The position numbers and the translations under genes were made by a program. DNA of 64,000 nucleotides from Microvenator marinus (GTDB lineage Bacteria > Myxococcota_A > Bradymonadia > Bradymonadales > Bradymonadaceae), in assembly GCF_007993755.1 (NCBI RefSeq), contig NZ_CP042467.1, positions 2,938,001 through 3,002,000 of the forward strand, given 5' to 3'. Of this stretch, positions 1 through 30,981 are shown in pieces; the stretch's first letter is position 1; each line of letters starts with the position of its first letter. The notes under the pieces were generated by a model. It was not told where the DNA came from, did not search any database, and saw only the letters and a program-made list of their open reading frames with translations.

Positions 1-1
1 G

Positions 2-697: not shown

Positions 698-707
698 GGA
701 AATTGCC

Positions 708-1292
708 ATGAGAAAATACAAGTTGATTCAGATGTTTTTGTTTTTAGGACTCGTTTTTGGAGCGTCGCAGGCGTGGGCGCTCGACGGCTATAAGGACCGC
801 CGCGGGGTCTTTGGTGGCCTTGGCGTGGGCGGTGGAGTCGGTGCCTCGGAGCTCGACCAGGAAGGCGAGAGCACGGGGCTTGATGATGCCCGTGAGATGG
901 GCTTGACCCTGCGCGCTGAAATCGGTGGCGGCTACACCAAATGGCTGACCTTCTCGGGTCAGGGCAACTGGTGGATTCGCACGGTTGAAGTCGGAACGAG
1001 AAAGCTTGAGCACCACCACTTCAACTTGTTGGCGAACGGAAACGTGTACTTCCTGGACACGCTCTACGCCACCGGCGGATTCGGCCTGGCGTATGCGGCG
1101 TTCGACGCATCAACCCTGCTTGGGACGCGCGAGTACCGTGAGATGGGCTTTGCAGCCAAAGCTGGCGTGGGTGCTGAGTTCTTCGTCAATGGCACTGTTG
1201 CAGCGGGCGTTGAGGCCACGTATACGCGCCACTTCTACTCGAACTCGTACTTCGATACGGTCGGTGGTGGCCTCGTGATGCGTTGGTACTGA
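708..1292 (+). CDS. Outer-membrane beta-barrel protein
   Basis: A 194-residue secreted protein. Residues 1-24 form a classical signal peptide (KYK basic start, hydrophobic MFLFLGLVFGASQ, AWA cleavage site). The mature part alternates Gly/aromatic-rich strands (GGLGVGGGVG, TKWLTFSGQGNWW, GGFGLAYAAF, GVGAEFFVNG) and ends in a strand with terminal aromatic Tyr (GGGLVMRWY). This is the usual signature of a small 8-stranded outer-membrane barrel that the BAM complex inserts. The start ATG has GAGGA about 8 bases upstream. It sits directly after the COG3014-like gene and converges with the serpin gene 8 bases downstream. Function beyond an outer-membrane barrel cannot be read from the sequence. Confidence 0.75.
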   Translation: MRKYKLIQMFLFLGLVFGASQAWALDGYKDRRGVFGGLGVGGGVGASELDQEGESTGLDDAREMGLTLRAEIGGGYTKWLTFSGQGNWWIRTVEVGTRKLEHHHFNLLANGNVYFLDTLYATGGFGLAYAAFDASTLLGTREYREMGFAAKAGVGAEFFVNGTVAAGVEATYTRHFYSNSYFDTVGGGLVMRWY

Positions 1293-1299
1293 GAAAGCT

Positions 1300-2610
1300 C
1301 TAGATATCGACAACGCGTGCGACGAAGAGAATCTGGCCGGTAGGCTTGTCCATAATCATGAACGTGAAGGGGCGGTCTGCATTGAAGTCCGCCGTGGCGG
1401 GCGCCGGCATGCCGGTCACAGCCATCATCGCGGTTGCGGCAGCAGCCTCGGTGCCGGCCTCATCCACACGAATGAAGCCTTCGTGGACCACGGCGCTGAT
1501 GTGGACGGGCTCGTCCGACATAGCTGAAAAATCCGCTTTTTCCGGGTCGAAGAAGTCTTTTAGGCCCATGGTTCCGAGGGTCTCGGAAAGATCGAGCTGA
1601 GTTCGAAGCTCAAACTTTGGCAACCTCACGTTAACGCGCTGATAGTCCAGGGACCCGGTGAAGTGCTCAAGCTGAGAGAGCGTAAGGCCCGCGTCAATGT
1701 TTTGGTATTGGCCAGCCTCTGGCAAGATCACCAGCGCCACAACCTGCTCTCCCACGTACGGAATTTCCAGAACCTGGTAGCCGTCCTTTTGGGCATATCG
1801 CATCGTGTCGGTGGTGGACATGAACGAAGCCTGTTTGGCGTCTCTCTTGAGCGTGTTGAAGGTTCCTGATTTGGTAGCTTGTGTGGAAAACGGCTTTGAC
1901 CACGGTGCGTTGAAGTAGACGGCGTTGGTCAGAACGGTACGCGTCGCGGGCGTGATGACGCCTTGAGCAAGAAGCTCGGGAATCTTGCCTGCGGTGGACT
2001 CGCTGATCGAGGCGTTGATGGTCTTTCGAGCATCTTCGGGCGCACCTTTGAAGTCCAGGGATTTTGCCTGCATCAGGAAATCGGTCTCGGCGGTCCTCAG
2101 GAATGGCGTCAGGAACTTGAAGTCATTCGCACCCCAAATGGCATTGGAGCTTCGGAGCCTGAACGCCAGCCCGCGGTCGGAGTCTTTCTCACGCGAGGCT
2201 AGCGCATCGTGTAGTTCACGGTAGAGCGCATAGGCGGGCGGCTCGGCGCCGTAGTGCAGAATTGCGCCTAGCTCGTCCTTTGTCCGGCCGTTGGCGCCGG
2301 CATGTGCTGCCGCCAATAGAGTGGAGACGCTATGCGGTGAGTAGACGATGTTCTCTTGAGGAAGCGCGCGGTGCATATCGAGGGCGAAGGCGTTATTGCT
2401 CCTAGAAACTTGGGCAACGCTCGGCACTGGCTTTCCTTCTGCCGGCTTCTGTGCTCGCGCATCATCCGCGACCGAAGTCGAGCGCTCTTCGGCGCTCACC
2501 CCTTCTGCGACTTGTTCAACATTTGCTGAAGGCTCCTTGGTTTCTTTGGAGGCACAGCTGGTCAAGAAGCTGAGGACGGCGACTAGTGCGGCGAGTTTGA
2601 TTTTTTTCAT
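1300..2610 (-). CDS. Serpin-family lipoprotein (putative serine protease inhibitor)
   Basis: A 436-residue protein with a lipoprotein signal (LSFLTSCA, lipid-modified Cys at about residue 19), a ~65-residue Glu/Ala linker, then a full serpin fold. Serpin hallmarks visible are NAFALDMHRAL at the start, SISESTAGKIPELL, VLTNAVYFNAPWSKPF, and the C-terminal DRPFTFMIMDKPTGQILFVAR. The reactive-centre loop has an inhibitory-type hinge, GTEAAAATA, with Gly at P15 (residue 386) and small residues from P12 to P7. Aligning the loop length to antithrombin puts P1-P1' near Gly400-Met401. Inhibitory serpins trap serine or cysteine proteases by loop insertion. A lipid anchor would display this one on the envelope, perhaps protecting the cell from its own or foreign proteases (inference). 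The gene converges with the barrel gene; the upstream region holds the start of the MBL unit on the other strand. Confidence 0.93.
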   Translation of the reverse strand: MKKIKLAALVAVLSFLTSCASKETKEPSANVEQVAEGVSAEERSTSVADDARAQKPAEGKPVPSVAQVSRSNNAFALDMHRALPQENIVYSPHSVSTLLAAAHAGANGRTKDELGAILHYGAEPPAYALYRELHDALASREKDSDRGLAFRLRSSNAIWGANDFKFLTPFLRTAETDFLMQAKSLDFKGAPEDARKTINASISESTAGKIPELLAQGVITPATRTVLTNAVYFNAPWSKPFSTQATKSGTFNTLKRDAKQASFMSTTDTMRYAQKDGYQVLEIPYVGEQVVALVILPEAGQYQNIDAGLTLSQLEHFTGSLDYQRVNVRLPKFELRTQLDLSETLGTMGLKDFFDPEKADFSAMSDEPVHISAVVHEGFIRVDEAGTEAAAATAMMAVTGMPAPATADFNADRPFTFMIMDKPTGQILFVARVVDI

Positions 2611-2805
2611 GAGCCTTCATCTTATAAAGTTGTCTTAGCTTTGCACGTTTCGAGTCTCTTTTGGATCTAATTTCTCGCTTTGTACACGTTGGAACACCCT
2701 GTTCCAAAACAGAGCACGCAAGGCCTCCCACATCCAAAACAAGAAGCTCAAACAACCCCCGATATTGCTAGCGAAGAGACGATTCAGAGCACCATAAACA
2801 AACCT

Positions 2806-2821
2806 TGGCACCCAACTTGTA
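2806..2821 (+). promoter_or_regulatory. Candidate sigma-54 (-24/-12) promoter
   Basis: TGGCACCCAACTTGTA matches the TGGCAC-N5-TTGCA consensus at every fixed position except one: GC at -12 is GT here. It would start transcription near 2832, about 25 bases before the ATG of the MBL-fold gene. A sigma-54 activator gene follows in the same unit, which fits. The GT substitution in the -12 element lowers confidence. Confidence 0.5.
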
Positions 2822-2856
2822 ATACTCCGAGACAGAACCCAAAACCGGAGACCAAG

Positions 2857-3714
2857 ATGTTAAAACTTACCACATGGGGCACTCGCGGAAGCCTGCCAAC
2901 CACCTCGACTCGCTGCGTGAGATACGGTGGGGCAACCACATGCCTTGAAATCGAGCTCTTTGACACAGATTCAAACACGCCCAATCGAATCATCATCGAC
3001 GCCGGAACAGGGCTAGCCGAGCTCGGGCGCCGAAAATTCAGCGAGATTGACGGGGCGCTCTTTCTACAAACCCATCTGCACTGGGACCATATCCAGGGAT
3101 TCCCGTTCTTCGGCCCGCTCTTTAAGGCGGGGGCTGAGTTCCGATTCCTTGGCGCACCACGAGATTCCACGGGGCTCGAAGCGACTTTGCGCGAGCAGAT
3201 GCGAGCACCAAACTTCCCTGTGAGTTTGGATATCCTGCCCTCCAAACTGGTGTTCGATGACATTGAAAGGCAGGGCTCGATGCTACTCGGCGAGCTGAGG
3301 CTTAGTTGGGATGAAATGCACCACCCAAGTGATGGGTGTACTGCATGGGCACTTGAGTATCGCGGATTCAAGGTCGTGTTTAGCGGCGACGCCGAGCTGA
3401 ACCTCGGCGGTGCGAAGGCACTTGAAGCTCTGGCCCAGAACGCAGATATCCTCGTGGCCGATGCGCAGTATCTGGAACATGAGTATCCCGCTCGCGTCGG
3501 CTGGGGGCACTCCACTCCGAGTCAGGTCGTGGAAGTTGCGAAACGGGCCTCGGTGCAAAGGCTTTTGCTCACGCATCACGACCCGTCCCACGACGACGAT
3601 ACGCTAGACCAAAAGGCCGAGGGTGCAAGGTTGCTGGCCGGCCACATGCCGGTCTCGAACGCCCATGATGGCATGAGCATTTGCCTTGGGGCACCTCTTG
3701 CGCTGGCGTCGTGA
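2857..3714 (+). CDS. MBL-fold metallo-hydrolase (PhnP/cyclic phosphodiesterase-like)
   Basis: A 285-residue cytoplasmic metallo-beta-lactamase-fold enzyme. The frame is open further upstream, but the ATG at 2857 has GGAG six bases before it and opens with the conserved first strand LKLTTWGTRGS. The metal motif THLHWDH gives His73, His75, Asp77 and His78. Later ligands are probably the His in MHHPSDG, the Asp in FSGDAE, and a late His in LLLTHHDP. The opening GTRGS plus RYGGATTCLEI is typical of COG1235-type phosphodiesterase-like proteins. The substrate is unknown; a cyclic nucleotide or phosphodiester is a guess from the family. It is followed six bases later by a GAF/sigma-54 activator and preceded by a candidate sigma-54 promoter, so the activator may autoregulate this pair. 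Confidence 0.85.
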   Translation: MLKLTTWGTRGSLPTTSTRCVRYGGATTCLEIELFDTDSNTPNRIIIDAGTGLAELGRRKFSEIDGALFLQTHLHWDHIQGFPFFGPLFKAGAEFRFLGAPRDSTGLEATLREQMRAPNFPVSLDILPSKLVFDDIERQGSMLLGELRLSWDEMHHPSDGCTAWALEYRGFKVVFSGDAELNLGGAKALEALAQNADILVADAQYLEHEYPARVGWGHSTPSQVVEVAKRASVQRLLLTHHDPSHDDDTLDQKAEGARLLAGHMPVSNAHDGMSICLGAPLALAS

Positions 3715-3720
3715 GGCTCT

Positions 3721-5217
3721 ATGATGAGAGAAATCGTCGAACATTATTCCAAAGGCCCTATCCGCATGAAGGACGCATTATTGTTGACGCTCTGGGAGCT
3801 CGTGGGCAAAGAAATCAGCGCCGACCAGCTCTTAAGACGCATTGTGGACGTCATGGCGCAGGAGCTGGGCGCTGAACGCGCGACGATTTTCTGGCTGGAC
3901 CACGCGCGAAAAGAGCTCATCAGCATTGCGGGCCACCTTCCTGAAGTCGAAGAAATCCGCGTGCCACTTGACCAAGGCGTGGCTGGCGAGGTCGCCCGCA
4001 GCGGCAAGGTCATCAATATCTCTGAGGTCAACGCGGACAACCGAATCTGGCGCGCAGTGGACCAGGAGACCGGCTATCACACCCACACCATGTTGGCGGG
4101 CCCGCTCCTCAATCCAGAAGGCGGGGTTATCGGCGTGGTTCAGTTTCTGAACAAAGAAGGGCGTTTTGACCGAGCGGACGAGGAGAAGCTTGAGGAGCTT
4201 TCGCGCCAGGCGGCTCTACTCCTGAACGAGACGACCCTTAGTCGGGCCGGCAACCGAGCGGAGCCAGAGCTTGAGCTCGGGGCGCATTTTAATCGAATCA
4301 TCGGCAATTCCGAGCCGATGCGAAGAGTTTTCAAGGCGATTCGGCGGGTGGCTCCGACGCAGGCGAGTGTGTTGCTACGGGGAGAGTCGGGGTGCGGGAA
4401 GACCTTGATTGCGCGGGCTCTTCACCACAGTTCCACACGTTCGACCGGCCCGTTTGTGGTGCTCGATTGCACGACTTTACCGGAGAACTTGGTTGAGAAT
4501 GAGCTTTTTGGTCATGAGCGTGGTGCGTACACGGGCGCCACCGGGCGGGCCACGGGCAAAGTTGATGCGGCTATGGGCGGCACGCTATTCTTGGACGAAG
4601 TCGGTGATCTTCCGCTGACGATCCAGGGCAAGCTTCTGGGACTCTTGCAGGAGCGAACGTTCAGCCGTGTGGGCGGCAACCAAACGCACCGTGCGGATAT
4701 TCGAGTAGTTGCTGCGACCAACCGCGATCTCGAAACCATGGTCAAAAATGGGGCGTTTCGCCAGGACCTCTACTACCGTTTGAGGGTGGTTGAGCTCGCG
4801 GTTCCGCCGCTCAGAGAGCGGGGCCAGGACGATATCGAGACGCTCGCGCACTTTTTCCTCGGTGAGTTTTCGAGAAGACACGGGCGCTCGGTTCACAGAA
4901 TCTCCGCAGCAGCGATGCAGGCACTCGTCCACCATCCTTGGCCCGGAAACGTGCGTGAATTGGAGCATTGCATCGAGTCGGCCACGATCTTCTGCGAGGG
5001 CAACGAGATTCTAGAAGAAGACCTCTCATTGCCGCCTAGCACGAGGGTTTCCGGCAATCCGTTTGCTGACGAGCCGACCCTTTCCGAGCTCGAAGAGCGC
5101 TATATCGAATGGCTCCTTGAGCGGCACGACGGCAATCGCTCCGAATGCGCACGGATTTTGAACATCGGGCGCAACACGTTGATCCGCAAAATTTCGAATA
5201 ACCCGTTCGATTCTTGA
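3721..5217 (+). CDS. GAF-domain sigma-54-dependent transcriptional activator
   Basis: A 498-residue regulator. An N-terminal GAF domain (about residues 25-175) is followed by an AAA+ sigma-54 interaction domain (about 190-425) with Walker A GESGCGKT (221-228), the sigma-54 contact loop GAYTGA (268-273), and Walker B GGTLFLDEVGDL. A Fis-type helix-turn-helix lies at the C-terminus (NRSECARILNIGRNTLIRKI). There is no response-regulator receiver domain, so activity is presumably set by a small ligand in the GAF pocket. Near neighbours outside this window include NifA/FhlA-type activators. The gene starts 6 bases after the MBL-fold gene; the protein could activate the sigma-54-like promoter at 2806 (inference). 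GAYTGA in place of GAFTGA is a common functional variant. Confidence 0.93.
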   Translation: MMREIVEHYSKGPIRMKDALLLTLWELVGKEISADQLLRRIVDVMAQELGAERATIFWLDHARKELISIAGHLPEVEEIRVPLDQGVAGEVARSGKVINISEVNADNRIWRAVDQETGYHTHTMLAGPLLNPEGGVIGVVQFLNKEGRFDRADEEKLEELSRQAALLLNETTLSRAGNRAEPELELGAHFNRIIGNSEPMRRVFKAIRRVAPTQASVLLRGESGCGKTLIARALHHSSTRSTGPFVVLDCTTLPENLVENELFGHERGAYTGATGRATGKVDAAMGGTLFLDEVGDLPLTIQGKLLGLLQERTFSRVGGNQTHRADIRVVAATNRDLETMVKNGAFRQDLYYRLRVVELAVPPLRERGQDDIETLAHFFLGEFSRRHGRSVHRISAAAMQALVHHPWPGNVRELEHCIESATIFCEGNEILEEDLSLPPSTRVSGNPFADEPTLSELEERYIEWLLERHDGNRSECARILNIGRNTLIRKISNNPFDS

Positions 5218-17042: not shown

Positions 17043-18197
17043 CTAGATGGCCGTCGTAAGAACGTGTTGTTTGTAGAGCAAATACACGAGCGCGACGGCC
17101 ATTAGTATGATCACCACAATCAGGGCGGTCACCACCGACATCGGCGCCACCGATGCCGTCTCTTGGGCAGGTTGTGCCTGCGGCGCTGCAGCCAAGAACT
17201 CTTGAGACCTATTGGCGGCTATCATGCGGGGTGCGTGGAACGGGCGCAGGTGATCACGTAGAGGCGGGACGTAGCGTGGATGATCCATCATCTGCTTTTC
17301 CAAGTCACCGATGATCCTTTCCAACCTGTCTCTGACCGCCTGAGCGCTGTCTGGGCGCTCGCCCGGCTCCTTCTGCATGAGCTCGTAGGCCAACTCGATG
17401 ATCACTTCTGGCACTGAATCCCCCAGAAGCTCATAGAGATTCGGGATGTCCTCGATCTGATGCGCACGCATCACTTCAAAGTCGTTTCGCCCCTCGAACG
17501 GTGGCCTTCCGGTCAACGCGGTAAAGAGGAGTACGCCGAGGGAGTAAAGGTCGCTTTGCGCGCTCGGCTCCGAGGAATCCAGAAGTTCCGGAGCGATGAT
17601 TCCGGGTGTGCCGGGAACTTCCCCTGCTCGCGTGATTTCGGAGCGTTTCTCGAGCTCTCGTGCGACCCCAAAATCGAGAATTTTGACGTGAATTCGGTCA
17701 TCCTGGTGGCGCACCATCATGATGTTCTCGAACTTGAGGTCACGATGGATAATCCCAAGGTGGTGAGCCTCGATGAGGGCATCGCAGACTTGAACAAAGA
17801 CGTGCAAGATCTCCAGCAGCGATAGCCGAGCGGACTCAAGGGCATGCCGAAACGTCTCGCCGCGCACATACTCCATCACGATGTACGTAAGGCCATTTAG
17901 GTCGCGACCCGAGTCGATGAACTGCACGATGTTGGGATGGCTCAGCTTTCCAATCACACCGGTTTCTTGAACAAAACGCGCGATGAGGTCCGAGTCGCCT
18001 GCGAGGTCGGGCTTGATGAGTTTGATGGCCACGGCGCGGTTGACGCTGAGTTGTGTAGCCTTGAAGACCACGCCCATGCCTCCAGAGCTCAGGATTCGCT
18101 CAAGGCGAAACCGCTGATCGAGCACGGTTCCAGCGAGGTTTTCGAGGGAGAGTTCGGCGTTTTGCGAACTCATATTTCGGCGCGGCGGTGTGGTCAT
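17043..18197 (-). CDS. Eukaryotic-type serine/threonine protein kinase with C-terminal TM
   Basis: A 384-residue kinase from the ATG at 18197; an upstream TTG (18236) and a downstream ATG (18173) are possible and none has a strong ribosome site. The kinase domain (about 25-285) has GGMGVVFKA, catalytic VAIKLIK, HRDLKFEN, LDFGVA and the APE-like IAPELLDSS. One TM segment near the C-terminus (VVTALIVVIILMAVALVYLL) leaves only a short periplasmic tail, so there is no external sensor domain. Pkn2/PknB-type kinases of this kind are abundant in myxobacteria. The kinase precedes no clear substrate gene; the giant lipoprotein gene diverges from it. Confidence 0.93.
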   Translation of the reverse strand: MTTPPRRNMSSQNAELSLENLAGTVLDQRFRLERILSSGGMGVVFKATQLSVNRAVAIKLIKPDLAGDSDLIARFVQETGVIGKLSHPNIVQFIDSGRDLNGLTYIVMEYVRGETFRHALESARLSLLEILHVFVQVCDALIEAHHLGIIHRDLKFENIMMVRHQDDRIHVKILDFGVARELEKRSEITRAGEVPGTPGIIAPELLDSSEPSAQSDLYSLGVLLFTALTGRPPFEGRNDFEVMRAHQIEDIPNLYELLGDSVPEVIIELAYELMQKEPGERPDSAQAVRDRLERIIGDLEKQMMDHPRYVPPLRDHLRPFHAPRMIAANRSQEFLAAAPQAQPAQETASVAPMSVVTALIVVIILMAVALVYLLYKQHVLTTAI

Positions 18198-18348
18198 AGA
18201 CTCAAGAGTCTGCCACCGAGCGGGGGACTTTTGCAATTTCAGTTTCTTTCAGTTTCCAAACCGAACACCACTCTGATAATGCTCGCCAATGATCGCAAAA
18301 GGCGCGCGTACCTGCTTGTAATGCCTTGCTAAATTGCCGAGGGAGAAG

Positions 18349-21300
18349 ATGAAAATTTCCGTGTTAAAGAGTGCATTTGTACTGGTTTTGGCCAGTGCGC
18401 TGGGTTGTTCGGACGACCCGACGCCTAGACCTAACCCGACCAATAATAACAATAATGAACCCGATATGACTTCGGATATTGGAGGAACCAATAACGAAAA
18501 CGATATGGGCGAGAATAACACTCCAGACATGGAGACGGACCAGGATCCCGACCTCGACCCGGATATGGGCGAGGATATGGATCCGGATTTGGGACCCGGT
18601 TGCGAAGATGAGTGTCAGCCCGGCGAGCAGGTTTGTGATGGCACCGGCGCATTCCAGATTTGCGGCCAATTCGACGACGACGAGTGCGTAGAGTTCTCGC
18701 AGAGCATCGCGTGTACACAGGGCCATAGCTGCCTTGAGGACCGATGCGTTCCGCCATGCAGGGACGAGTGCCCAAGCGGCACAACGGTTTGTTTGGACGA
18801 GAACACCGTCGGAACTTGTGGCAACTACGACGCGGATTCTTGCCGTGAAGCGGGTGCGGGTGTGGCATGTGGCGCAAATGAGCGCTGCGAGCAAGGTGCG
18901 TGTGTAGACACTACTGAAGCCTGCACCGACGAGTGCTCCGCGGGCGAGTCGGTCTGCTTTGGCGACGCGACGCGCACCTGCGGACAGTTTGACTCGGACT
19001 CCTGTTTGGACCTCGGACCGGCTGAGCCTTGTGCATCAGGCGAATCATGTGCCAGCGGAACATGCGCGGTGCCTTGCTCGGACACGTGCTCCACGGAAGG
19101 TGCTGAAGAGTGTTCAGGAAACGGCGTCAGAACGTGTGAGCGCACCGCACAGGGCTGTTTAGCCTGGAGTCCGGTTGTGGCGTGCTCCGCCGCAGAAACC
19201 TGCTCCAACGGCGTTTGTGCGGCGAATTGTTCGGACGAATGCCCGACCTCGGGTGCCGCGATCTGCTCGCCGGATAACTCCGGGGTTTCGATCTGTGGGC
19301 AGTTTGACGGTGATGCGTGCCTCGATCGATCAAGCCCAGTGCCTTGTCAGGCTGGATTCGCATGTAGCCAGGGACAATGCGTGGCGACGTGCTCCGACGA
19401 GTGTACTCAAGGCGCGACCCAGTGCTCAGGCAACTCGCTCGAGAGCTGCGGAAACTACGATGCCGACCCTTGTTTGGAGTGGGGTGGCGCGGTGGCCTGC
19501 CCTGGCGGCGCAACCTGCACCAACGACACCTGCGACTTGCCTTGCTCAGACGAGTGCACCACATCGGGCGCGGTCGAGTGTTCTGGAAACGGAACGCGAA
19601 GCTGCGGTCAGTTCGACCTAGACAACTGCCTTGAGTGGTCCACCACCACCGCCTGTCAGTCCTATGAAGTCTGTGCCGCTGGCGCATGTGAACTTGGCGC
19701 AACGCCAGCCATCGTACTTATCAACGAGCTTGTCTATGACTCCATGGGCACCGATTCGGCAGCTGGAAATACGCTCTTCGTGGAGCTTTCTGGCCCTCCT
19801 GGTCAGTCGTTGGACGGCTACTCGGTCGTGGGCGTCAACGGGTCAGGCGGCGGCGATTACAATTCAATCCCCTTGACCGGCGAGACGATTGGCCAAGACG
19901 GATTCTTCGTGATCGCTCATCCGAACGGTGACGCGACACTGGTGGCGTCGGCAGAAATGACCTCAACCGCGGTCGACTTCCAGAACGGACCTGACTCTGT
20001 TCAAGTGCGCTGGCGAGGCCGCGTAGTGGACGCACTCGGTTACGGAAGCTTCGGGGCGAATGATACGTTTGCGGGCGAGGGAACAGCTGCCGGCTCGGCA
20101 CAAAACGGAGCGAGCTTGTCGCGCGACCTCGACTCAAATGACACGGACGACAACTCTGTAGACTTTACGGTACAGGCGTCTCCTACGCCCGGTGCCGCCG
20201 CGATCTCTTGTATGAATGACTGTTCCATGGGGCAGACCCGATGCGACGGCACACAGATTCAGAGCTGTGGGAACTTTGATGCGGACACGTGTCTTGAGTG
20301 GGGACCATCCATGGCATGTTCGGGCTCACAAACGTGTCAGGGCACCACCTGTCAGGATCCTTGCACCGATGAGTGTTCCGCCCAAGGCGCCACGCAATGC
20401 TCAGGCGAACAAGTCAGAACTTGCGGAAACTACGACACGGACTCATGCCTGGAGTGGTCAACTGCTGCGGACTGCCCTGGTACTCAGGTTTGCACCCTAA
20501 ACGTATGTCAGGACGCCACGGCTCCTGAGGTGGTTTTGATTTCCCCACAGGGAACCCTGCAGACGACGCAGGGCAATGTTCACCGCATGTTGGTGGACGC
20601 CACGCCGAACGCCGGGCGAACCATTTCGGAGGTTCGCTACTACGCTGACGGCGCGCTGCTTGGCAGCACCACATCAACTCCACACGAGTACTTCTACACT
20701 GTACCTGCGAATCACCCGACAAACACTCAGATCGTGCTTCAGGCGCAGGCCACGGATAGCACCGGAATCGTCGGAAGTTCGGCTTTTGCATACCTAGACG
20801 TTAGAAACGACGCGCCTGTTGCATCGTTCACGGCGACCATCACCAACACGACCACGGTGACCGTGGACGCCTCGGGATCCACCGACACTGAAACGGCTAC
20901 GCCAGACCTCGAAGTATGTTGGGACTGGAACAATGACGGCACCTGTGACACGCCGTTCTCTACTCAACAGATTCGAAGTCACGACTTTGGAGCTTCCGGC
21001 AACTATACTATTCGTATGGTGGTTCGTGATGCCGTTGGCCAAACTACGTCGACGACTCGGCAAGTGAGCTTCGCGGACATTCAGTACGTGGGCGGAAGCG
21101 ACGTGACCACCACACTCTGGTACGGCACGATCATCGTAACGGGCAACGTCACCGTGCCTTCTGGCAACACGCTGACCATCGCCCCTGGTACCGACATTCT
21201 CTTTGTGTACTCGGACGTGGCGGCGCCAAGCGGCGTTGGCGACTACCGAATCACGGTCAACGGTAATATGGTGGTCAACGGCACCGCGGCGGATCCCGTT

Positions 21301-23772
21301 GTATTCTCGGGACAAGACCAGACAGCCAAGGTACCCGGTGGTTGGGACCGAATCATCCTCAACGGCGCTGGGTCGGTGATCGATCATGCGATCATCGAGT
21401 ATGCGGATTTCGGCCTTGATATACGCAGCGATGCGCAGATCACGAACACCGAAGTCCGAAACACGCGGGACAACTGCATCGACATGAACAACGCGGACAA
21501 CGCGAGCTTGGAAGACGTGGTGACGCGAGAGTGTGGTGGAAACGGCGTCGAGGTTCGAAACGGTTCGAACCCTGTAGACATCACCTCATTGAGCTCCACT
21601 CAGAACGGCGAGAGCGGCATCTACTTGCGCCAGTCGTCCGTGGTGACCATGACCACAAGCACTTTGGCGGGCAACGCTGACGAAGGTGCATACGTGGACA
21701 CGAGCACATTGAACCTTTCGGATTCAGTGGTGGAAAACAACCTCAACCGCGGCCTTATTTTCAATGGAAACAGCGGTGGAGCCGTGACTCGAAACCAGAT
21801 CCGAACCAACGCTGCTGCGGGTATCGAGCTATTAGCAAGTACCACGCAGTCGGACTCGCCGTCTCCGGTTGTCAATCTCAACAACATCTACTCGAACTCC
21901 ACAGGCTCCACCGAGATTTACGAAGGGATCATTACGAGTTCGGTGCTTACAGCCTCTTACTCGGGCTGCTGCAGCTCGTCCGGAGTTACTTCCTCAGACT
22001 GGACTAAACCGGCCGGGTCGACGATCCGCCGAGTTAGGCTCAACTATAACGAAACCGACTACTCAACTAACTACGTGATCGGCTATCTCATCAATGCAGA
22101 GACAGGCAGTACGATTCAGCAATTCAACAGTGATTTCAATGGCTGGATCGAAATTCCCTCGGGAGTCAATAGCCTCCGGGTACGTGTCCGCGATAGTGGC
22201 TATGGTTCCGTGACTGACACCATCACGGTTTCGCAAGTTGAAGTCGTGAAGAGTGGGCAGGCCGACGTTGCCGCTTCATTGAACAGCGCAATCGACTTCC
22301 AGCGCAATTATCTTGGCACTTGGCCAAACGTCATGACGCGTACCTTTGAATCGTCAAGAAACATGCTGAACGTTCAGGGATTTGTGGGTGTCCCGTTCAC
22401 AAGCTCGTGGGACACAGGCATTTACATGGCGGGGAATGTGAGTGGAACGTGGTCTTCAACGATCTACGTAACCGGCAACACGACGGTTCCGGCGGGTCAG
22501 GTATTGAATGTCGATCCTTCCACACAGATCCTCTTCGTCAACCACGACCAGAACTTGGACAACGTTGGGGATTTTGAAATCAAGGCAAATGGTCAATTCA
22601 ACCTCAACGGCGCTCAAGGAAACGAAGTGTTGATTGCGGGACTTGGTGCTTCTGATATCGATATGTTCCAAGAGGTGAATCTGGACGGCTCTGGAGCGGA
22701 TCAAAGTACTTGGAATGACGTCAATCTTCGCAACGGGCAGACGGGAGTAATGTTGCGAGGATCGAGTACTTTGACTCGGGTTAACATCTCAACAGTCGGC
22801 CGCGACGGAATCTACGTGATTTCTGGAGCTCCGAGTTTGAGCTACGTCACCGTCGATGGTGCTGTGCGTTATGGTGTTCATATCGGCGCTGCATCTCCAG
22901 TTCTAAGCCGTATGACAATTCGCAACGGGTTGAGTCACGGTCTCTTCTACAACGGTGCAAACGGCGGAACTCTGGAGGACAGCACAGTTCGGGAGAACCA
23001 GGGTGACGGTGTGCACGTCAATGGACCTGCCGCACCAGGGGTGAATTACAATTTGATCACCTATAATGGAGCTACTGGCATTCGGGTAAACGGCAATAGC
23101 GCTATGGTAGGGAACAATAACGTCATAAAGTTCAATGATGACGCCGGTGTTGCACTTCGTTCAACTGTAAGTAGCCACCCCACAGCGAAGTTCAATTACA
23201 GCAATATCTACGGAAACGCAGTGCTTGGAACCACCATAGCTCAAGCGTTTACGACATCCTCGGTCCTCACGGCATCCTATAGTGGCTGTTGTAGTTCTAC
23301 CGGGGTTACTTCGAGTGATTACACGCTGCCAAACGGACGAGAAGCAAGGCTTGCGCGAATCGCCTACAACGAAACGGACTACTCCACGAACTACGTCATT
23401 GGGTATCTGATCAACGCCACAACAGGGTCCACAATTCAGCAATTCAATTCGGATTTCAATGGTTGGGTTGAGATTCCATCGGGGGTGACTTCTTTGCGAG
23501 TTCGGGTGAGAGATAGCGGTTATGGCTCTGTCACTGACACCATAACCGTCCATGAAGTCCTCTCAGACGAATACGCCACCTCAACCGCCTACGAGCTTGC
23601 TGCCATGACGGTTTCCGGAACATCGGACGCGAAGTTCAACTACTGGACACCAACTATTGGTGAGGTCCCGACCAAAATCCATCAGGCCCGAAATGGTTCT
23701 GTAGACTTCACGGGCTTTACCGGTGCCGAATACCCGAGTGGTCAAGTCACTCAGGTTGGTCCTCGCCCGTAA
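18349..23772 (+). CDS. Giant Cys-rich lipoprotein with lamin-tail, PKD and two beta-helix modules
   Basis: An approximately 1,807-residue surface lipoprotein. ATG 18349 follows GAGGGAGAAG and opens a lipoprotein signal (VLASALGCSDD). Then comes an Asn/Asp/Met linker, and nine Cys-rich repeats of ~50 residues (core pattern C-x-DEC ... CG-x-FD-x-D-x-CLEW); seven precede and two follow a lamin-tail-like domain (PAIVLINELVYDS ...). Next are an Ig-like segment (PEVVLISPQG ... DSTGIVGSS), a PKD domain (about 825-910), and two right-handed beta-helix-like modules, each with a leading VPxGxxLxxxPxTxILF strand pair. Each module contains one copy of a ~98-residue CC-containing insert. The C-terminus has no sorting signal. 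Likely role: surface binding or matrix, possibly prey or polymer contact (inference). Divergently transcribed from the kinase. Confidence 0.9.
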   Translation: MKISVLKSAFVLVLASALGCSDDPTPRPNPTNNNNNEPDMTSDIGGTNNENDMGENNTPDMETDQDPDLDPDMGEDMDPDLGPGCEDECQPGEQVCDGTGAFQICGQFDDDECVEFSQSIACTQGHSCLEDRCVPPCRDECPSGTTVCLDENTVGTCGNYDADSCREAGAGVACGANERCEQGACVDTTEACTDECSAGESVCFGDATRTCGQFDSDSCLDLGPAEPCASGESCASGTCAVPCSDTCSTEGAEECSGNGVRTCERTAQGCLAWSPVVACSAAETCSNGVCAANCSDECPTSGAAICSPDNSGVSICGQFDGDACLDRSSPVPCQAGFACSQGQCVATCSDECTQGATQCSGNSLESCGNYDADPCLEWGGAVACPGGATCTNDTCDLPCSDECTTSGAVECSGNGTRSCGQFDLDNCLEWSTTTACQSYEVCAAGACELGATPAIVLINELVYDSMGTDSAAGNTLFVELSGPPGQSLDGYSVVGVNGSGGGDYNSIPLTGETIGQDGFFVIAHPNGDATLVASAEMTSTAVDFQNGPDSVQVRWRGRVVDALGYGSFGANDTFAGEGTAAGSAQNGASLSRDLDSNDTDDNSVDFTVQASPTPGAAAISCMNDCSMGQTRCDGTQIQSCGNFDADTCLEWGPSMACSGSQTCQGTTCQDPCTDECSAQGATQCSGEQVRTCGNYDTDSCLEWSTAADCPGTQVCTLNVCQDATAPEVVLISPQGTLQTTQGNVHRMLVDATPNAGRTISEVRYYADGALLGSTTSTPHEYFYTVPANHPTNTQIVLQAQATDSTGIVGSSAFAYLDVRNDAPVASFTATITNTTTVTVDASGSTDTETATPDLEVCWDWNNDGTCDTPFSTQQIRSHDFGASGNYTIRMVVRDAVGQTTSTTRQVSFADIQYVGGSDVTTTLWYGTIIVTGNVTVPSGNTLTIAPGTDILFVYSDVAAPSGVGDYRITVNGNMVVNGTAADPVVFSGQDQTAKVPGGWDRIILNGAGSVIDHAIIEYADFGLDIRSDAQITNTEVRNTRDNCIDMNNADNASLEDVVTRECGGNGVEVRNGSNPVDITSLSSTQNGESGIYLRQSSVVTMTTSTLAGNADEGAYVDTSTLNLSDSVVENNLNRGLIFNGNSGGAVTRNQIRTNAAAGIELLASTTQSDSPSPVVNLNNIYSNSTGSTEIYEGIITSSVLTASYSGCCSSSGVTSSDWTKPAGSTIRRVRLNYNETDYSTNYVIGYLINAETGSTIQQFNSDFNGWIEIPSGVNSLRVRVRDSGYGSVTDTITVSQVEVVKSGQADVAASLNSAIDFQRNYLGTWPNVMTRTFESSRNMLNVQGFVGVPFTSSWDTGIYMAGNVSGTWSSTIYVTGNTTVPAGQVLNVDPSTQILFVNHDQNLDNVGDFEIKANGQFNLNGAQGNEVLIAGLGASDIDMFQEVNLDGSGADQSTWNDVNLRNGQTGVMLRGSSTLTRVNISTVGRDGIYVISGAPSLSYVTVDGAVRYGVHIGAASPVLSRMTIRNGLSHGLFYNGANGGTLEDSTVRENQGDGVHVNGPAAPGVNYNLITYNGATGIRVNGNSAMVGNNNVIKFNDDAGVALRSTVSSHPTAKFNYSNIYGNAVLGTTIAQAFTTSSVLTASYSGCCSSTGVTSSDYTLPNGREARLARIAYNETDYSTNYVIGYLINATTGSTIQQFNSDFNGWVEIPSGVTSLRVRVRDSGYGSVTDTITVHEVLSDEYATSTAYELAAMTVSGTSDAKFNYWTPTIGEVPTKIHQARNGSVDFTGFTGAEYPSGQVTQVGPRP
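21937..22230 (+). repeat. Intragenic repeat, copy 1 (98 residues)
   Basis: Copy 1 of a 294-base unit inside the giant lipoprotein gene, encoding SSVLTASYSGCCSSSG through VTDTITV. Copy 2 has the same length, 84-85 of 98 residues identical, but many synonymous codon differences. Confidence 0.9.
23257..23550 (+). repeat. Intragenic repeat, copy 2 (98 residues)
   Basis: Copy 2 of the unit in the same gene, encoding SSVLTASYSGCCSSTG through VTDTITV. The central YNETDYSTNYVIGYLIN and QQFNSDFNGW are identical in protein but differ in codons from copy 1. Confidence 0.9.
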
Positions 23773-24340: not shown

Positions 24341-24549
24341 CAATCTCCTCCAGTCTACGCAGACTATGTCCGCATGGGGTGTATCGGCACGCAGATTATT
24401 ACCCAAACTCGCCGAGATTTTTAGGGAAAAAGGGGCAATTGGGTGTCTGAAACTTTCTCAAACTTTTAGTGTTTGGCTTGTTTGCCGGCTTGTCTTTGAC
24501 TAGGAAGGCGTGTGAAAAAGTTCAGCAAATCAATCGTGTTGAGGTCGTG

Positions 24550-25926
24550 GTGAGAGTACATCCATTTTTGGTCTTGATAGCATCTGTGTTCGTGATTTCG
24601 TGTGCCGATGACGTGGTCAAGAAGAACTCCACACCGAGTGGATTCAACAACACCACAGCGACAAACAACCCAGATTCCAATAACCGCGCGTCAAATAATG
24701 CGCTCAATAACTCCAACAACACGCAGACGAACACATCCAACAATCTCACGTTGAACAATCCCGACCCTGAGTTTTGCGGAAACGGTGTTTTGGATGAGGG
24801 CGAGGCTTGTGATCCGGCCATTCAATCCGGTGCTGGAGTGTGCCCGAGCAGCTGTCAAACACAGGACGCGTGCCTTCAACTCGAGCTTCGAGGAAGCGCC
24901 GAGGCCTGCACCGCACAATGTGTGGCAACTATCATCGCGCAGTGCGCTAGCGGTGACGGATGTTGTGCAGCGGGGTGCACCTTCGAGACGGATAACGATT
25001 GTTCACCAACATGCGGAAATGGCGTGGTTGATGCGGGCGAAACATGCGATGGGAATTGCCCAAGCCAGTGTACCCCGTCGTCGACATGTGCCACCGCGAG
25101 CCTTGCTGGCAGTGCCGCATCCTGCACCGCAATCTGCACAGAGACCCAGATCACCCAGTGTTCATCAGGCGACGGATGCTGCCCGGCTGGCTGCACATTC
25201 GCGAACGATAATGATTGTTCATGCACTCCACGCACCTGCACGGCAAACCAATGTGGAACCATCGACAATGGCTGCGGAGGGACTGTGAACTGTGGCGGCT
25301 GTGGGGCCGGCGAAGCATGCACCAACAATACTTGTGTGGCGACTGGTACGGGCTTTCCTGTAGGGTCGGCCTGTACCTCGCACTCGCAATGCAGCGGCAA
25401 CACCCCGAATTGCATCACGGACCCAGACTTCCACCAGGGCTACTGCAGCGCCAACTGCCAGTTTGACAACGATTGTCCATCGGGATCGCATTGTGGCTAC
25501 AAGGACCAAAACGGTCTTGGCGTCTGTCTGAAGAACTGCACGAACAACTCAGACTGCCGAACAAATTACTCGTGTCATAACGACGACGCGTCGCAAGACA
25601 ATTCGCGCGAATGCGCCCCTTACGGCGCGGGCTCTAGAGCCATCGGCTCGTCGTGCACCGGCGTGTATCAGTGTAGCGGAGGGGATGACGCATTGTGTCT
25701 GCGCGGAACATCTTGGCCAGGTGGATATTGCTCATTGGAATGTACTTCGATTATCTTTTTGGGCGACTCATGTCCTAGCGGAAATCGTTGTTACACCGAG
25801 TTCTCGCAGGACGGATTCTGCGTAGAAGAGTGTACCTTCAACTCGGAATGCAGACAAAATGAAGGCTACCAGTGCCTGGAAGGGTTCACGATTATCTCCG
25901 ACCCTTATAACGCGTGTTTGAAGTAG
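24550..25926 (+). CDS. Cys-rich lipoprotein with CGNG repeat units
   Basis: A 458-residue lipoprotein starting at GTG 24550 (GAGG six bases upstream; the frame is open from 24469 but upstream codons lack a signal). Signal VLIASVFVISCADD, then an Asn/Thr/Ser linker (residues 25-75). After it come two ~75-residue units starting CGNGVLDEGEACD and CGNGVVDAGETCD. The units contain GDGCCxAGCTFxxDNDCS and belong to the DUF4215/myxo disulfide-repeat type also seen in the 27612 gene. Then a CGGCGAGEACxNNTC unit and EB-like segments (SACTSHSQCSG, DCPSGSHCG, NNSDCRTNYSC). More than 40 Cys. A surface protein; the tandem DsbA-like protein could oxidise such substrates. Function unknown. Confidence 0.82.
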   Translation: MRVHPFLVLIASVFVISCADDVVKKNSTPSGFNNTTATNNPDSNNRASNNALNNSNNTQTNTSNNLTLNNPDPEFCGNGVLDEGEACDPAIQSGAGVCPSSCQTQDACLQLELRGSAEACTAQCVATIIAQCASGDGCCAAGCTFETDNDCSPTCGNGVVDAGETCDGNCPSQCTPSSTCATASLAGSAASCTAICTETQITQCSSGDGCCPAGCTFANDNDCSCTPRTCTANQCGTIDNGCGGTVNCGGCGAGEACTNNTCVATGTGFPVGSACTSHSQCSGNTPNCITDPDFHQGYCSANCQFDNDCPSGSHCGYKDQNGLGVCLKNCTNNSDCRTNYSCHNDDASQDNSRECAPYGAGSRAIGSSCTGVYQCSGGDDALCLRGTSWPGGYCSLECTSIIFLGDSCPSGNRCYTEFSQDGFCVEECTFNSECRQNEGYQCLEGFTIISDPYNACLK

Positions 25927-27611: not shown

Positions 27612-29456
27612 CTAGGGCGTCCACGGGACGCGTGCAGCCGGGAAATTGAAGTAGAACCACCATCCAACTTGTCCACCTGGCCCAACGTCTTTGTCACTAT
27701 GAGAGGCGCAGTTGCCGGTACCACCGGGAAGGAGACTGGAGAGTGGCTCCCCGCCTACCACGTCTATTGTAGCCGGAATGATGACGCTGTTGGCATCGGC
27801 CTCCGAGAGGAATCCACGCAGGAGCCCATTGGTCATGTTGTTCGCTGGATTGCCCGAATAGGTGGCCGCGACCCTGACGTCTTGGAGCGGAATCACGATG
27901 CCCGAAACCGTGACGTTGAGTGTAACGGAGTCGCTTGAGAAACATGGCCCAGAAGCCGACGTGATGGCGGGAGAATATGGGCGTGTTGTGTTTGGCAGGG
28001 GCGCCAAGCAGGTGGTGTTGGCGTTGGCGTACGTCCCAACTTGCGCCACGCCTCCGGAGGTGGGCGAGCATTGGGTAGACGATAGCGGTGCCGCGCAGTC
28101 GGCCTCAAAGACCGTTATCTGGCCGTTGGCGCCGTTTACTTGAGAGAAGGGAACAAACTCGAGAACGAAGCTTAAGTCGAGGAAACCATCGTCGTCACTT
28201 GTATCGGCACAGTCTCCGTCGCAAACGATCGTATCCTCCAGCAATTGGTTGATGGACGGTGCCAAATTGAACGGCACGGAGTCTGTGATGTCAGAGCAGC
28301 CAAGGAACGGGAGGTTCGCGTAGATGTGGGGGTCTCGAATATTCAAGTCATTCAGCCTGAAAGCCACCGATGCGCTCGTGCACGAGGTACTGCAAGTTGG
28401 GGAACCGTTGGGGCCGGCATCACAGTCCTCTCCTGGCTCTACGATGCCATTTCCGCACGTGGACGAGCAGTCCCCGTCCGTGTTGGCATTGCATCCGGCC
28501 GGACAACAGCCGTCGGTGGTGTTTGCTACGCAGCCTAGCGGAGTATCCTGACAGACCACGTTACATTGGGCAGGCGACCCGGTGAGCGTGTTGTTGGTGC
28601 ATACGTCACCATCATCGCAGTTGGTCGGGCAGTTTCCGTCGCAGGTTTCGTTCGCATCAACCACCATGTCTCCGCAAGTCGCCGAGCAATCGTTGTCCGT
28701 AGTTTGGTCGCACCCCATAGGACAACAACCGTCGTCATCCACGCAAGAGGTGATGGGAGTGTTCGAGCATGTCAAATCACAGGTGGCGGCAGAACCCGTG
28801 GCGAGGTCGGCGGTACAAGCGTTTCCATCATCGCAGCTTGGGCAGTTTTGGTCGCAGGTTTCTCCCGGTTCCACGACACCATTATCGCAAACGGAAGCAC
28901 AATCGTTGTCATTGTTGGCGTTACATCCAGGAGCACAGCAGCCATCGTCATCAGCACAGGCCGTTATTGCGTCAAAGACACATTCGGCGGAGCAATCGCT
29001 TCCCTGCAGCACATTTGTAGTACACGCATCAGCATCATCGCACGCGCTCGGGCACGCGCCGGGCCCCTCGGTGATTCCGGTGTCACACGTTTCGCCATCA
29101 TCAAGGGCGCCATTGCCACAGAGGAACATGCAGTCCACACAGTCCTCGGATTCATCGTCGCAATCCTCACCTTCTTCAACCACGCCATTTCCGCAAACTG
29201 CTGTGACCATATCCGGCTCGGAGTCGGGCTCCATATCGGTCTGCGCATCGGGCTCCATATCGGGCTCCTCCATATCGGGCTCAGCCTGATCGGGCGCGCT
29301 CATATCGGTCTGCCCACCTTCATCAGCGCCCACATCTTGAGCCTGGTCGGGCTCCTGATTCATGTCTGCGGATGGAAAAACCGAACCTGCTTCGTCCGCA
29401 CAAGCTGTCCAAAACAGGAGAGCGAGTAGCGGCGATACCTTAAGAAGTCGCTGCAT
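27612..29456 (-). CDS. Cys-rich lipoprotein with three to four CGNG repeat units
   Basis: A 614-residue lipoprotein (LLALLFWTACADE lipobox; GAGG before ATG). A long acidic Glu/Pro/Asp/Met linker (residues 30-85, units EPDM/EPDAQTDM) is followed by repeated ~70-residue units: CGNGVVEEGEDCD, CGNGALDDGETCD, CDNGVVEPGETCD, CGDMVVDANETCD and CGNGIVEPGEDCD, with DDGCCPxGCxxxxDNDCS between. These are DUF4215-type repeats, as in the 24550 gene. From about residue 375 comes a secreted beta-rich domain (SVAFRLNDLNIRDPHIY onward, with GQITVFEADCA), not recognised. Ends APW-like with no sorting signal. A surface protein. Confidence 0.8.
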   Translation of the reverse strand: MQRLLKVSPLLALLFWTACADEAGSVFPSADMNQEPDQAQDVGADEGGQTDMSAPDQAEPDMEEPDMEPDAQTDMEPDSEPDMVTAVCGNGVVEEGEDCDDESEDCVDCMFLCGNGALDDGETCDTGITEGPGACPSACDDADACTTNVLQGSDCSAECVFDAITACADDDGCCAPGCNANNDNDCASVCDNGVVEPGETCDQNCPSCDDGNACTADLATGSAATCDLTCSNTPITSCVDDDGCCPMGCDQTTDNDCSATCGDMVVDANETCDGNCPTNCDDGDVCTNNTLTGSPAQCNVVCQDTPLGCVANTTDGCCPAGCNANTDGDCSSTCGNGIVEPGEDCDAGPNGSPTCSTSCTSASVAFRLNDLNIRDPHIYANLPFLGCSDITDSVPFNLAPSINQLLEDTIVCDGDCADTSDDDGFLDLSFVLEFVPFSQVNGANGQITVFEADCAAPLSSTQCSPTSGGVAQVGTYANANTTCLAPLPNTTRPYSPAITSASGPCFSSDSVTLNVTVSGIVIPLQDVRVAATYSGNPANNMTNGLLRGFLSEADANSVIIPATIDVVGGEPLSSLLPGGTGNCASHSDKDVGPGGQVGWWFYFNFPAARVPWTP

Positions 29457-29565
29457 AATAACCTCAAATGAATTTGTCTTAAGTTTAGTTTAGCGTGTTT
29501 CGGTTGCTCCTCCTAGCCACAGATTCCACGTGGACATTTGTTCGGAGTCAGCCCATCATCAGGGC

Positions 29566-30981
29566 ATGCGATGGTTAATCTTTCTGATCATTTTTGCGTT
29601 TCAGGGCGTAAGCTTTGCCGAGACTCCGAGCTGGAGTTTTGAGAACTCCGCTCTCAAGAAATCGGGCGTAGAGACTGAGACTTGGACGTTTCCATCACCT
29701 ATTTTGGACGTCCGTCATGCCAACGATGGGACCGAAGTTCAGCTTGGTGTGGGGCTCTTTGGAGACCCTGGGCCTTGGGTGAAGGTTGGTGCTCCACACG
29801 TAGGAAGAGGTGCGTGGGAGAGTGCTGTCTATCCTCTTGAGAGCGAGACCACATATCGCTGGTTCGATGACTACAAGCTGGTTGGAAGATACGCGTTGAA
29901 AGGGGACCCTCGAATTGACGAGACCGTTGAACGCGCGCTGAGTCGTCTCGAAGCGGAAGGGCTAAAGGCGGAGCAACTCGAAGGCATCCTTGTCTCCGGT
30001 TTTGTTCGAGAGCTGGCGAAGGCTATCCGAATCGCGCACGAGAATGACGACGGTGCTGAGGTTGACCGCCTAGCGGACATCCTGTGGAAGCTCGCACCAA
30101 ACGGGATGGGGCACAAAGCGGATTACCAGAGGCTCTCGAACTGGCTTGAAGAGAAGGGCGAACATGAACTGGCAACGAAATGGGCAACCCGGGCGGATAA
30201 GCACGCGAATGTAGCTTCTTACAATGGCCTAAAGATCGACGTCTCCCTAATGCTCTGGATCGCAATCCTATGGGGAATCGTCCTGAGCGGATTTGCATTC
30301 GGGGCGAGTGGTCGACCCTACAAGAAGTCGTACGGTGTTGTGTTAATCCTCTTGTCCATTGCGGCTCTCGGAGCACGGGCTCAGTTCGAAAAATCAGCGA
30401 TAGAGGGGAGTAAACGCCAATCGATACCGGCCGAAGTCTTAGCTGGTGCCTTGGGTTCAACAGAGGGTCTTAAGTGGCTTGAGGAACTCGAACCGTCCGC
30501 AGAGCGAGATGCCCTCGCTGCCAAGGCTGAAGCCGAGCTCGATGCCGTGATGGAGGGAGAGAGTGAGTTGCCGCCAGCCGTCTCGCCCGCGGAGCTCGAA
30601 GCCCTGGTCCAGAGCTACAGCAACTACCGGATACACCCACAATCTTATCTTCCCGGAGTGGGTCTCCTTTTACACTTGCTGCTCTTTCTCTTCGGCAGGT
30701 TCTTATATGGGCGAGGACTTGGAAAATGGTTGAGATATTTTCCAGGCGCCACCGCGGGGATTGCGGCGCCTATTTTGGTGACCCTTTACGCGGCTGCGTT
30801 CTACTGGTCTCTGAGAGGTTCCACTTTCCAGAGCATGTTCATGGACCGCTCCCCTGTCTTTGAACACGCCAAGCCGTCTATCTTGGTACCCACGATTATC
30901 TTGTTCACTTTGGCGATTGGGGTTCATGTGGCCTCCATCGCGACGACTAGGTTGAAAACTCAAGAGGCAGAGCCCACGTAG
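29566..30981 (+). CDS. Membrane protein with signal peptide and ~5 TM segments, unknown
   Basis: A 471-residue protein. ATG 29566 opens a cleavable signal (FLIIFAFQGVSFA). A soluble part of ~200 residues (Trp-rich start, then helical) follows. Then come TM segments near VSLMLWIAILWGIVLSGF, VVLILLSIAALGARA, LPGVGLLLHLLLFLFGRFL, PGATAGIAAPILVTLYAAAFYW and PTIILFTLAIGVHVASIA. No family recognised. The next gene starts 35 bases downstream on the same strand. Divergent from the Cys-rich lipoprotein at 27612. Confidence 0.65.
   Translation: MRWLIFLIIFAFQGVSFAETPSWSFENSALKKSGVETETWTFPSPILDVRHANDGTEVQLGVGLFGDPGPWVKVGAPHVGRGAWESAVYPLESETTYRWFDDYKLVGRYALKGDPRIDETVERALSRLEAEGLKAEQLEGILVSGFVRELAKAIRIAHENDDGAEVDRLADILWKLAPNGMGHKADYQRLSNWLEEKGEHELATKWATRADKHANVASYNGLKIDVSLMLWIAILWGIVLSGFAFGASGRPYKKSYGVVLILLSIAALGARAQFEKSAIEGSKRQSIPAEVLAGALGSTEGLKWLEELEPSAERDALAAKAEAELDAVMEGESELPPAVSPAELEALVQSYSNYRIHPQSYLPGVGLLLHLLLFLFGRFLYGRGLGKWLRYFPGATAGIAAPILVTLYAAAFYWSLRGSTFQSMFMDRSPVFEHAKPSILVPTIILFTLAIGVHVASIATTRLKTQEAEPT

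Follow-up and report, generated by a model that had tools for sequence, protein, structure and literature searches.

Twin inserts of a beta-helix protein family in Myxococcota-type bacteria evolve in concert and match most tightly at one predicted domain end

RESULTS

Architecture of the window protein

The window analysed here is a stretch of 64,000 nucleotides from Microvenator marinus, and window coordinates count from its first base. On its forward strand lies a gene (18349–23772, +) whose translation has the 1,807 residues originally predicted and whose product we refer to as the window protein. It starts with a signal peptide carrying a lipobox-like ALGC (the lipobox being judged by eye), continues with seven cysteine-rich repeats of ∼48 residues each (18601–19689, +; found by pattern match, some also detected as DNA repeats) and two further ones (20209–20508, +; pattern match), nine in total, and then with a PKD domain (20806–21057, +; Pfam PF18911, 31.1 bits against a cut-off of 27), ahead of which lies a Big_7 match scoring under the Pfam cut-off (20524–20709). 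As read from the sequence at the outset, the second half consists of two tandem modules, which are 42% identical over 408 aligned positions; either module is formed by a beta-helix carrying a 98-residue insert close to its end, and both have the leading VPxGxxLxxxPxTxILF element that had been described (21154–21204 and 22486–22536, +). The right-handed beta-helix family PF13229 matches the protein with 104.6 bits (curated cut-off 25.9). Beta-helix 1 (21106–21909, +) is seen both by PF13229 and in the structure model, beta-helix 2 (22444–23229, +) in the structure model, and the AlphaFold2 prediction of the C-terminal 990 residues, PKD domain included, has a mean pLDDT of 90.8 and a pTM of 0.76. 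The predicted insert domains occupy 21910–22263 (insert 1) and 23230–23583 (insert 2), both on the forward strand, and enclose the shorter segments first delimited (21937–22230 and 23257–23550); the spacing from insert to insert is almost fixed, at 439–447 residues in six family proteins. The window protein is probably located on the cell surface.

The adjoining gene is divergent and encodes a Ser/Thr protein kinase (17043–18236, −; Pkinase, 168.2 bits). When 11 flanking window proteins were compared by tblastn with 29 relative loci (27 distinct, as L016 and L018 repeat two, and several of them short), only the kinase was matched, in 3 of the 29, and the gene context is therefore not conserved as far as seen. 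Further along the window are large open reading frames of 485, 614 and 483 residues (24469–25926, 27612–29456 and 29530–30981), which have no Pfam match at E up to 0.001 and no NCBIfam match at 0.01.

Predicted fold of the insert

Modelled alone by AlphaFold2, the insert is a nine-strand beta-sandwich (pLDDT 93.0, pTM 0.87), the strands of which we labelled A to I, naming each loop by its flanking strands. In the jelly-roll topology the BC, DE, FG and HI loops lie at one end and the CD, EF and GH loops at the opposite end; judging by strand order, the BC, DE and HI loops of the insert would cluster at one end, here called the tip. In insert 1 the loop regions are SGCCSSSGVTSS (BC, 21961–21996, +), ETDYSTNYVIG (DE, 22051–22083, +) and DSGYGSVTD (HI, 22192–22218, +). 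Insert 2 has identical protein sequences at DE (23371–23403, +) and HI (23512–23538, +), and its BC region, SGCCSSTGVTSS (23281–23316, +), differs by one residue. Both BC loops contain adjacent cysteines (CC; 21967–21972 and 23287–23292), which six other family members have in the HI loop.

The statement that no known domain name fits the insert holds: nothing scores above the Pfam cut-off for the window inserts, no Pfam family comes near significance among 55 inserts (best E 0.013), NCBIfam gives nothing above cut-off for the whole window protein, and a PDB sequence search with the insert returned one weak match (Afp2, E 0.056). Fold matches by VIA-align reach a Z of 8.4 (rmsd 3.0 over 112 residues), which by the tool's own note is about the level reached by models lacking a clear relative. 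CBM51 and CBM36 are among these middling matches, and no Pfam CBM family matched the 55 inserts at E up to 0.1. A BFVD structure search gave only low-TM matches of mixed kinds, and with matches of this middling quality we claim no more for the predicted fold than a generic beta-sandwich. PDB neighbours of the helix region, found by profile and by Foldseek, include mannuronan epimerases and phage tailspikes, with Foldseek TM-scores over the query of 0.21 or less among the matches listed.

Residues and silent sites of the two window inserts

The original prediction of equal-length inserts with ∼85% identity is confirmed by a gap-free alignment over 98 codons in which 84 of 98 residues are the same. 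At the DNA level (21937–22230 against 23257–23550) 192 of 294 bases are identical, the differences falling 20, 17 and 65 times on codon positions 1, 2 and 3. The many silent differences noted at first sight are real: 56 of the 83 degenerate codons for identical residues differ, as do 34 of 42 fourfold sites. Because these 56 differing codons compare with 52.7 expected under independent choice from the gene's own codon usage (silent z +0.7), the silent third positions keep no visible memory of a common origin. The same is found in the loops, where 29 of 30 residues are identical and 18 of 29 codons differ silently against 18.3 expected. Recent gene conversion with matching silent sites, which had been named as the outcome that would speak against old, selected copies, is thus excluded for this pair, whose silent sites do not match. 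The dN/dS comparison suggested at the time gives an NG86 dN of 0.20, while dS is saturated and yields no usable value. In its own 5.85-Mb genome the insert has no further copy at E up to 10, the sole other match being 36 residues long (E 0.316) with an internal stop.

Distribution of the family

Searching 57 genomes of the class, including that of M. marinus, with one insert found six genomes, in all of which one reading frame contains two matches, and an insert profile found 11 of the 57. Across 377 sampled genomes of the phylum the insert occurs in 20 with the first profile and in 23 with a larger one, which answers the earlier call to search the insert alone for its spread. Exactly two insert matches are present in 20 of these 23 genomes (split over two contigs in G065); G100 contains five, in one two-insert and one three-insert protein, and G063 and G179 have one each at the profile threshold used. 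A family protein usually has two inserts. The PKD-plus-helix stretch is matched in 13 of the 57 class genomes, two of which, G010 and G035, lack the insert and match the stretch only distantly (best E 5.5e-17 and 2.4e-23, respectively).

A scan of named genomes with the region alignment, of which we took the best 80 of 126 matched stretches, gave 75 loci. At least 27 of these (L072–L098) belong to the family, each with an insert match, and their record titles name Myxococcota, Myxococcales, Deltaproteobacteria, Archangium, proteobacterium or bacterium and, in one case, Bdellovibrio; in the remaining 48 the match does not go past residue 201 of the query, covering the PKD domain and little beyond. 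With a single insert as query, neither phages, plasmids and viral contigs nor genome contigs gave a match, the latter scan being of a kind that reaches close relatives only. Judged by titles and the starts of abstracts, none of the open-access papers listed describes the protein.

Inserts evolve in concert while their helices do not

For comparisons between the two copies of one protein (twins) we used 27 proteins, namely the window protein and L072–L098 minus the one-insert L093; proteins of G179, G179b and G283 lie outside this set. The second copy of L097 is on another contig and presumed to be of the same gene, and this protein was left out of the trees and of the helix identity comparison, whereas the third copy of L091 is in the alignment and trees and outside the twin counts.

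In the trees, 1 of 26 proteins (the three-module L091) has helix modules that are sisters, whereas 24 of 26 have sister insert copies, so the inserts have been made alike again after the helices parted. The helix copies group mostly by position, the largest single-position clades holding 22 and 16 of 53 leaves with no clean split. Pairwise identities agree: the twin is closer than the best same-position orthologue for the helices of 1 of 26 proteins and for the inserts of 20 of 27, and over a 118-residue stretch the window insert shares 75% of its residues with its twin and 48% with L072, its best same-position orthologue. These sequence comparisons argue for an old duplication of the module within the family and for concerted evolution of the inserts. 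A tree of the loop columns pairs twins in 23 of 26 proteins and a tree of the framework columns still does so in 18 of 26, from which it follows that the whole insert is in part concerted. Of the two marks of concerted evolution by gene conversion, copies within a genome being closer to each other than to orthologues is found here, and silent sites being alike between copies is not found overall, as 19 of 27 proteins have a silent z above −2.

Twin matching is concentrated at the predicted tip

With segments defined by the predicted structure, twin identity over the 27 proteins is 189/190 in DE, 177/180 in HI, 68/75 in BC and 63/81 in FG, against 143/243 in CD, 74/128 in EF and 71/170 in GH, the loops expected at the other end. 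The tight matching extends into the strand ends that adjoin the tip loops, identity being raised in strands C (141/166), E (131/180), B (78/108) and H (152/218) and lower in D (132/291), F (69/135), G (79/160), I (164/351) and A (38/187). Between proteins the same loops vary widely, with position matching of 0.18 for BC, 0.39 for DE and 0.23 for HI, compared with 0.43 for CD. Length follows the same pattern: DE ranges from 3 to 11 residues and HI from 5 to 9 across proteins, and twins mismatch in length in 0 of 27 proteins for each, in 1 of 27 for BC, 4 of 27 for EF and 7 of 27 for GH (0 of 27 for CD, whose length never varies). L094 has a loop-length mismatch between its twins.

Loop matching is independent of framework divergence, since twin loops stay matched as framework identity falls. 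In three bins under 0.50 framework identity the loops are 0.916–0.951 identical between twins and 0.204–0.337 between proteins, and at framework identity under 0.30 they match at 0.951 within proteins (n = 3) and at 0.204 between them (n = 993). The loop columns of this test and of the loop-codon counts were picked after viewing the data, and the test was repeated with structure-defined columns (above) and with held-out ones: over 200 split-half runs the held-out chosen columns average 0.941 between twins and 0.327 between proteins, and the unchosen columns 0.552 and 0.248. Random pairing of tips (2,000 shuffles) gives a mean DE+HI identity of 0.269 and a maximum of 0.413; the observed value is 0.989.

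Three same-genus pairs, picked for an insert that, taken as a whole, resembles the orthologue more than the twin, separate tip from base. Tip residues differ at 13 of 147 positions between twins and 50 of 146 between orthologues, whereas base residues differ at 233 of 365 between twins and 158 of 367 between orthologues (Fisher P 7.6e-9, or 5.4e-6 without L097, for residues that are not independent). L087 of genus g76 is not among these pairs. In g32 (L082/L083) it is the twin that the framework resembles more (54/74 and 53/74 within proteins, 46/74 and 46/74 between), and in g22 (L090/L098) neither is clearly nearer (21/68 and 29/70 within, 21/70 and 18/67 between), so this mosaic of tip and base is not universal.

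The tip columns are enriched in Ser (0.211), Gly (0.147), Tyr (0.105) and Asp (0.084) relative to the rest (0.139, 0.072, 0.044 and 0.031). Adjacent cysteines occur in the tip of 10 of 28 proteins, in BC in four and in HI in six and never in both loops, and in all nine two-copy proteins that have them they are present in both twins; such a pair could form a vicinal disulfide.

Silent sites reveal copying

Fresh conversion of the whole insert is seen in L076, L077, L081 and L073 (silent z −9.5, −7.2, −6.0 and −4.8), and gene conversion is plain in G006 and G021, whose inserts differ at 1 of 99 and at 5 of 92 silent codons. Four further proteins have a silent z of −2.0 to −2.9, and the 19 above −2, the window protein included, are mostly slightly negative. 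Two proteins combine silently identical loops with diverged frameworks: in L098 0 of 26 loop codons differ (7.2 expected) against 10 of 28 framework codons (11.2 expected), and in L082 1 of 23 loop codons (5.6 expected) against 17 of 52 (17.4 expected), which looks like short-tract copying of the loops.

Matched serines lie in differing codon boxes in 9 of 101 cases in DE+HI (45.8 expected), 10 of 42 in BC+C (19.7 expected), 6 of 30 in FG (13.5 expected) and 30 of 140 elsewhere in the insert (64.1 expected). Twins thus share a codon box well beyond what independent origin would give, so most matched residues have been copied and not re-invented, and purely independent, convergent matching is ruled out as the main route; 25 of the 173 matched serines in BC+C, FG and DE+HI do differ in codon box. 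In the 23 proteins other than the four freshly converted ones, DE+HI has 99 silent differences against 133.1 expected (z −4.5) and the other segments 259 against 278.8 (z −1.8), or observed-to-expected ratios of 0.74 for DE+HI, 0.80 for BC+C+DE+HI and 0.93 for the other segments. With its silent sites less diverged, the tip may be under tighter constraint or be the product of later copying. A retroelement diversifying the tip loops is a possible but unsupported candidate; the genome has one RVT_1 match below cut-off (27.2 bits against 29.6) ∼0.6 Mb away and no third insert copy.

Variants and exceptions

L091 (open reading frame 1–5103) has three modules and three inserts with near-identical tips (36 to 39 of 41 residues), and the two-insert L092 of the same assembly has a different tip sequence. 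The G179 paralogues L069 and L070 have the two-module layout with tips that are unmatched by eye, each copy resembling the same-position copy of the other paralogue; an earlier partner search had found only a weak partner for one and none for the other. They serve as a natural negative control. In G283 the tips are matched only in part. L093 (2101–4782, the same locus as L060) has one module and one insert in an 894-residue open frame, and two heads are therefore not obligatory.

DISCUSSION

Tips that are matched within proteins yet change between species are not easily explained by conversion acting on loops that are otherwise independent. They may reflect selection for matched tips, very frequent copying in tracts of a few dozen bases, or both. 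On balance we lean, by a modest preference, towards twin recognition heads that are held to one specificity by selection, aided by short-tract conversion. The protein would be an exported, probably membrane-anchored stalk of cysteine-rich repeats and PKD domain that presents two beta-helices, each carrying a jelly-roll-like domain whose BC, DE and HI loops would form a recognition tip of greatly varying sequence and length between species. The two tips of one protein would have to stay alike: selection would favour the copying of a change in one head to the twin by short-tract intragenic conversion, or an equal substitution in the twin, and the two heads would thereby share a single specificity for bivalent binding to one kind of partner. 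The sequence patterns suit a tip that binds something, with both heads recognising one target that changes between lineages, and the matching was presumably selected and did not simply arise from frequent copying. For the ligand our leading guesses are a repeated glycan and a copy of this protein on an adjacent cell, the polysaccharide-acting structural neighbours of the helix giving a mild hint of glycans. Standing against selected twin heads are the unmatched tips of the G179 paralogues and the partly matched ones of G283, the copying indicated by serine codon boxes and low DE+HI silent divergence, the 18 of 26 proteins whose framework alone pairs the twins, the one-insert L093, and a neighbourhood in which no conserved gene was seen.

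Gene conversion alone, with occasional homogenisation followed by ordinary purifying selection on each loop and no demand for matching, is a possible though doubtful account. It draws on the four fresh conversions and the four proteins with a silent z of −2.0 to −2.9, on the tip-only silent identity of L098 and L082, and on the same serine and DE+HI evidence that counts against selected twin heads. It fares badly with loops that are near-constant between twins and, from protein to protein, about as variable as the framework, with the three same-genus pairs in which the tip has changed in both twins though the base is nearer the orthologue, and with the 0 of 27 proteins that show a one-copy tip switch (loop identity is at least 0.846 in each; the G179 paralogues differ). 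That the two tips contact each other within one molecule as a pseudo-twofold pair, with residues matched across a symmetric interface, would suit matching that holds for single residues and for loop length alike, a CC that is placed in BC or HI yet in both twins in 9 of 9 proteins, and the insert spacing of 439–447 residues in six proteins; we consider it quite improbable, as the three-insert L091 keeps all its tips alike, the one-insert L093 exists and the second helix lies between the inserts. Finally, of the original prediction of an old duplication held by strong protein-level selection, selection with saturated silent sites and 84 of 98 identical residues stands, whereas a simple old duplication under uniform strong purifying selection on the insert has next to no chance of being right, as helix copies are sisters in 1 of 26 proteins and insert copies in 24 of 26, and the insert shows no strong conservation between species, the window insert being closer to its twin (75%) than to its L072 orthologue (48%).

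Within the reading of selected twin heads, the tip loops might more specifically be a self-recognition code, insert 1 of one molecule or cell docking head to tail with insert 2 of another, and such docking would require identical tips. We regard this as rather unlikely; if true, each species or lineage would carry its own code, and Myxococcota would have a second homotypic recognition system apart from TraA, with a matching rule that is readable from sequence.

Domains that are paralogous would be expected either to drift apart or to be made uniform over entire DNA tracts. In this family one predicted domain end is matched in 27 proteins of many genera, and the remainder of the domain drifts, as mostly do the silent sites. 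The matching marks a likely recognition surface without knowledge of the ligand, and the family is a natural data set on how binding specificity can shift if two sites have to change jointly. It allows a test of whether two parts of a single protein, as if both had to recognise the same thing, evolve in step.

Among known systems, jelly-roll and CBM-like beta-sandwiches (BcsB, the Kex2 P domain, CUB, CBM36) would have the same overall fold as the insert, but at middling fold Z only, the insert having no significant Pfam or PDB sequence match. Right-handed beta-helix proteins acting on polysaccharides share the Pfam Beta_helix-type helix with the window protein, but TM-scores are low. TraA, according to PMC6372800, is a polymorphic self-recognition receptor of myxobacteria whose variable domain, at the N-terminus, is a distant relative of PA14 and which carries a MYXO-CTERM signal. 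As there described, it resembles the insert protein in coming from myxobacteria or Myxococcota-type bacteria and in having a variable recognition part (putative here) and cysteine-rich repeats, and a TraA-like self-recognition role is a possibility by analogy. In the window protein Pfam finds no PA14 at E up to 1, a weak test as the TraA domain described there is only a distant PA14 homologue, and MYXO-CTERM (TIGR03901) is not matched either, NCBIfam giving no match at E up to 0.01. Matching that is concentrated at one domain end with mostly diverged silent sites was not found described in titles and abstract starts of the open-access papers listed. Recurrent concerted evolution of prokaryotic genes is already known: PMC6053082 reports it as long-lasting in 26 paralogous genes, in most of which silent sites are alike, conversion being judged the main force. 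As in the genes of that account, same-genome copies here resemble each other over orthologues, recurrently and over deep time. Unlike those described there, in which the units are genes, the units here are domains within one protein, most proteins have near-randomised silent sites, and close matching is concentrated at one predicted domain end.
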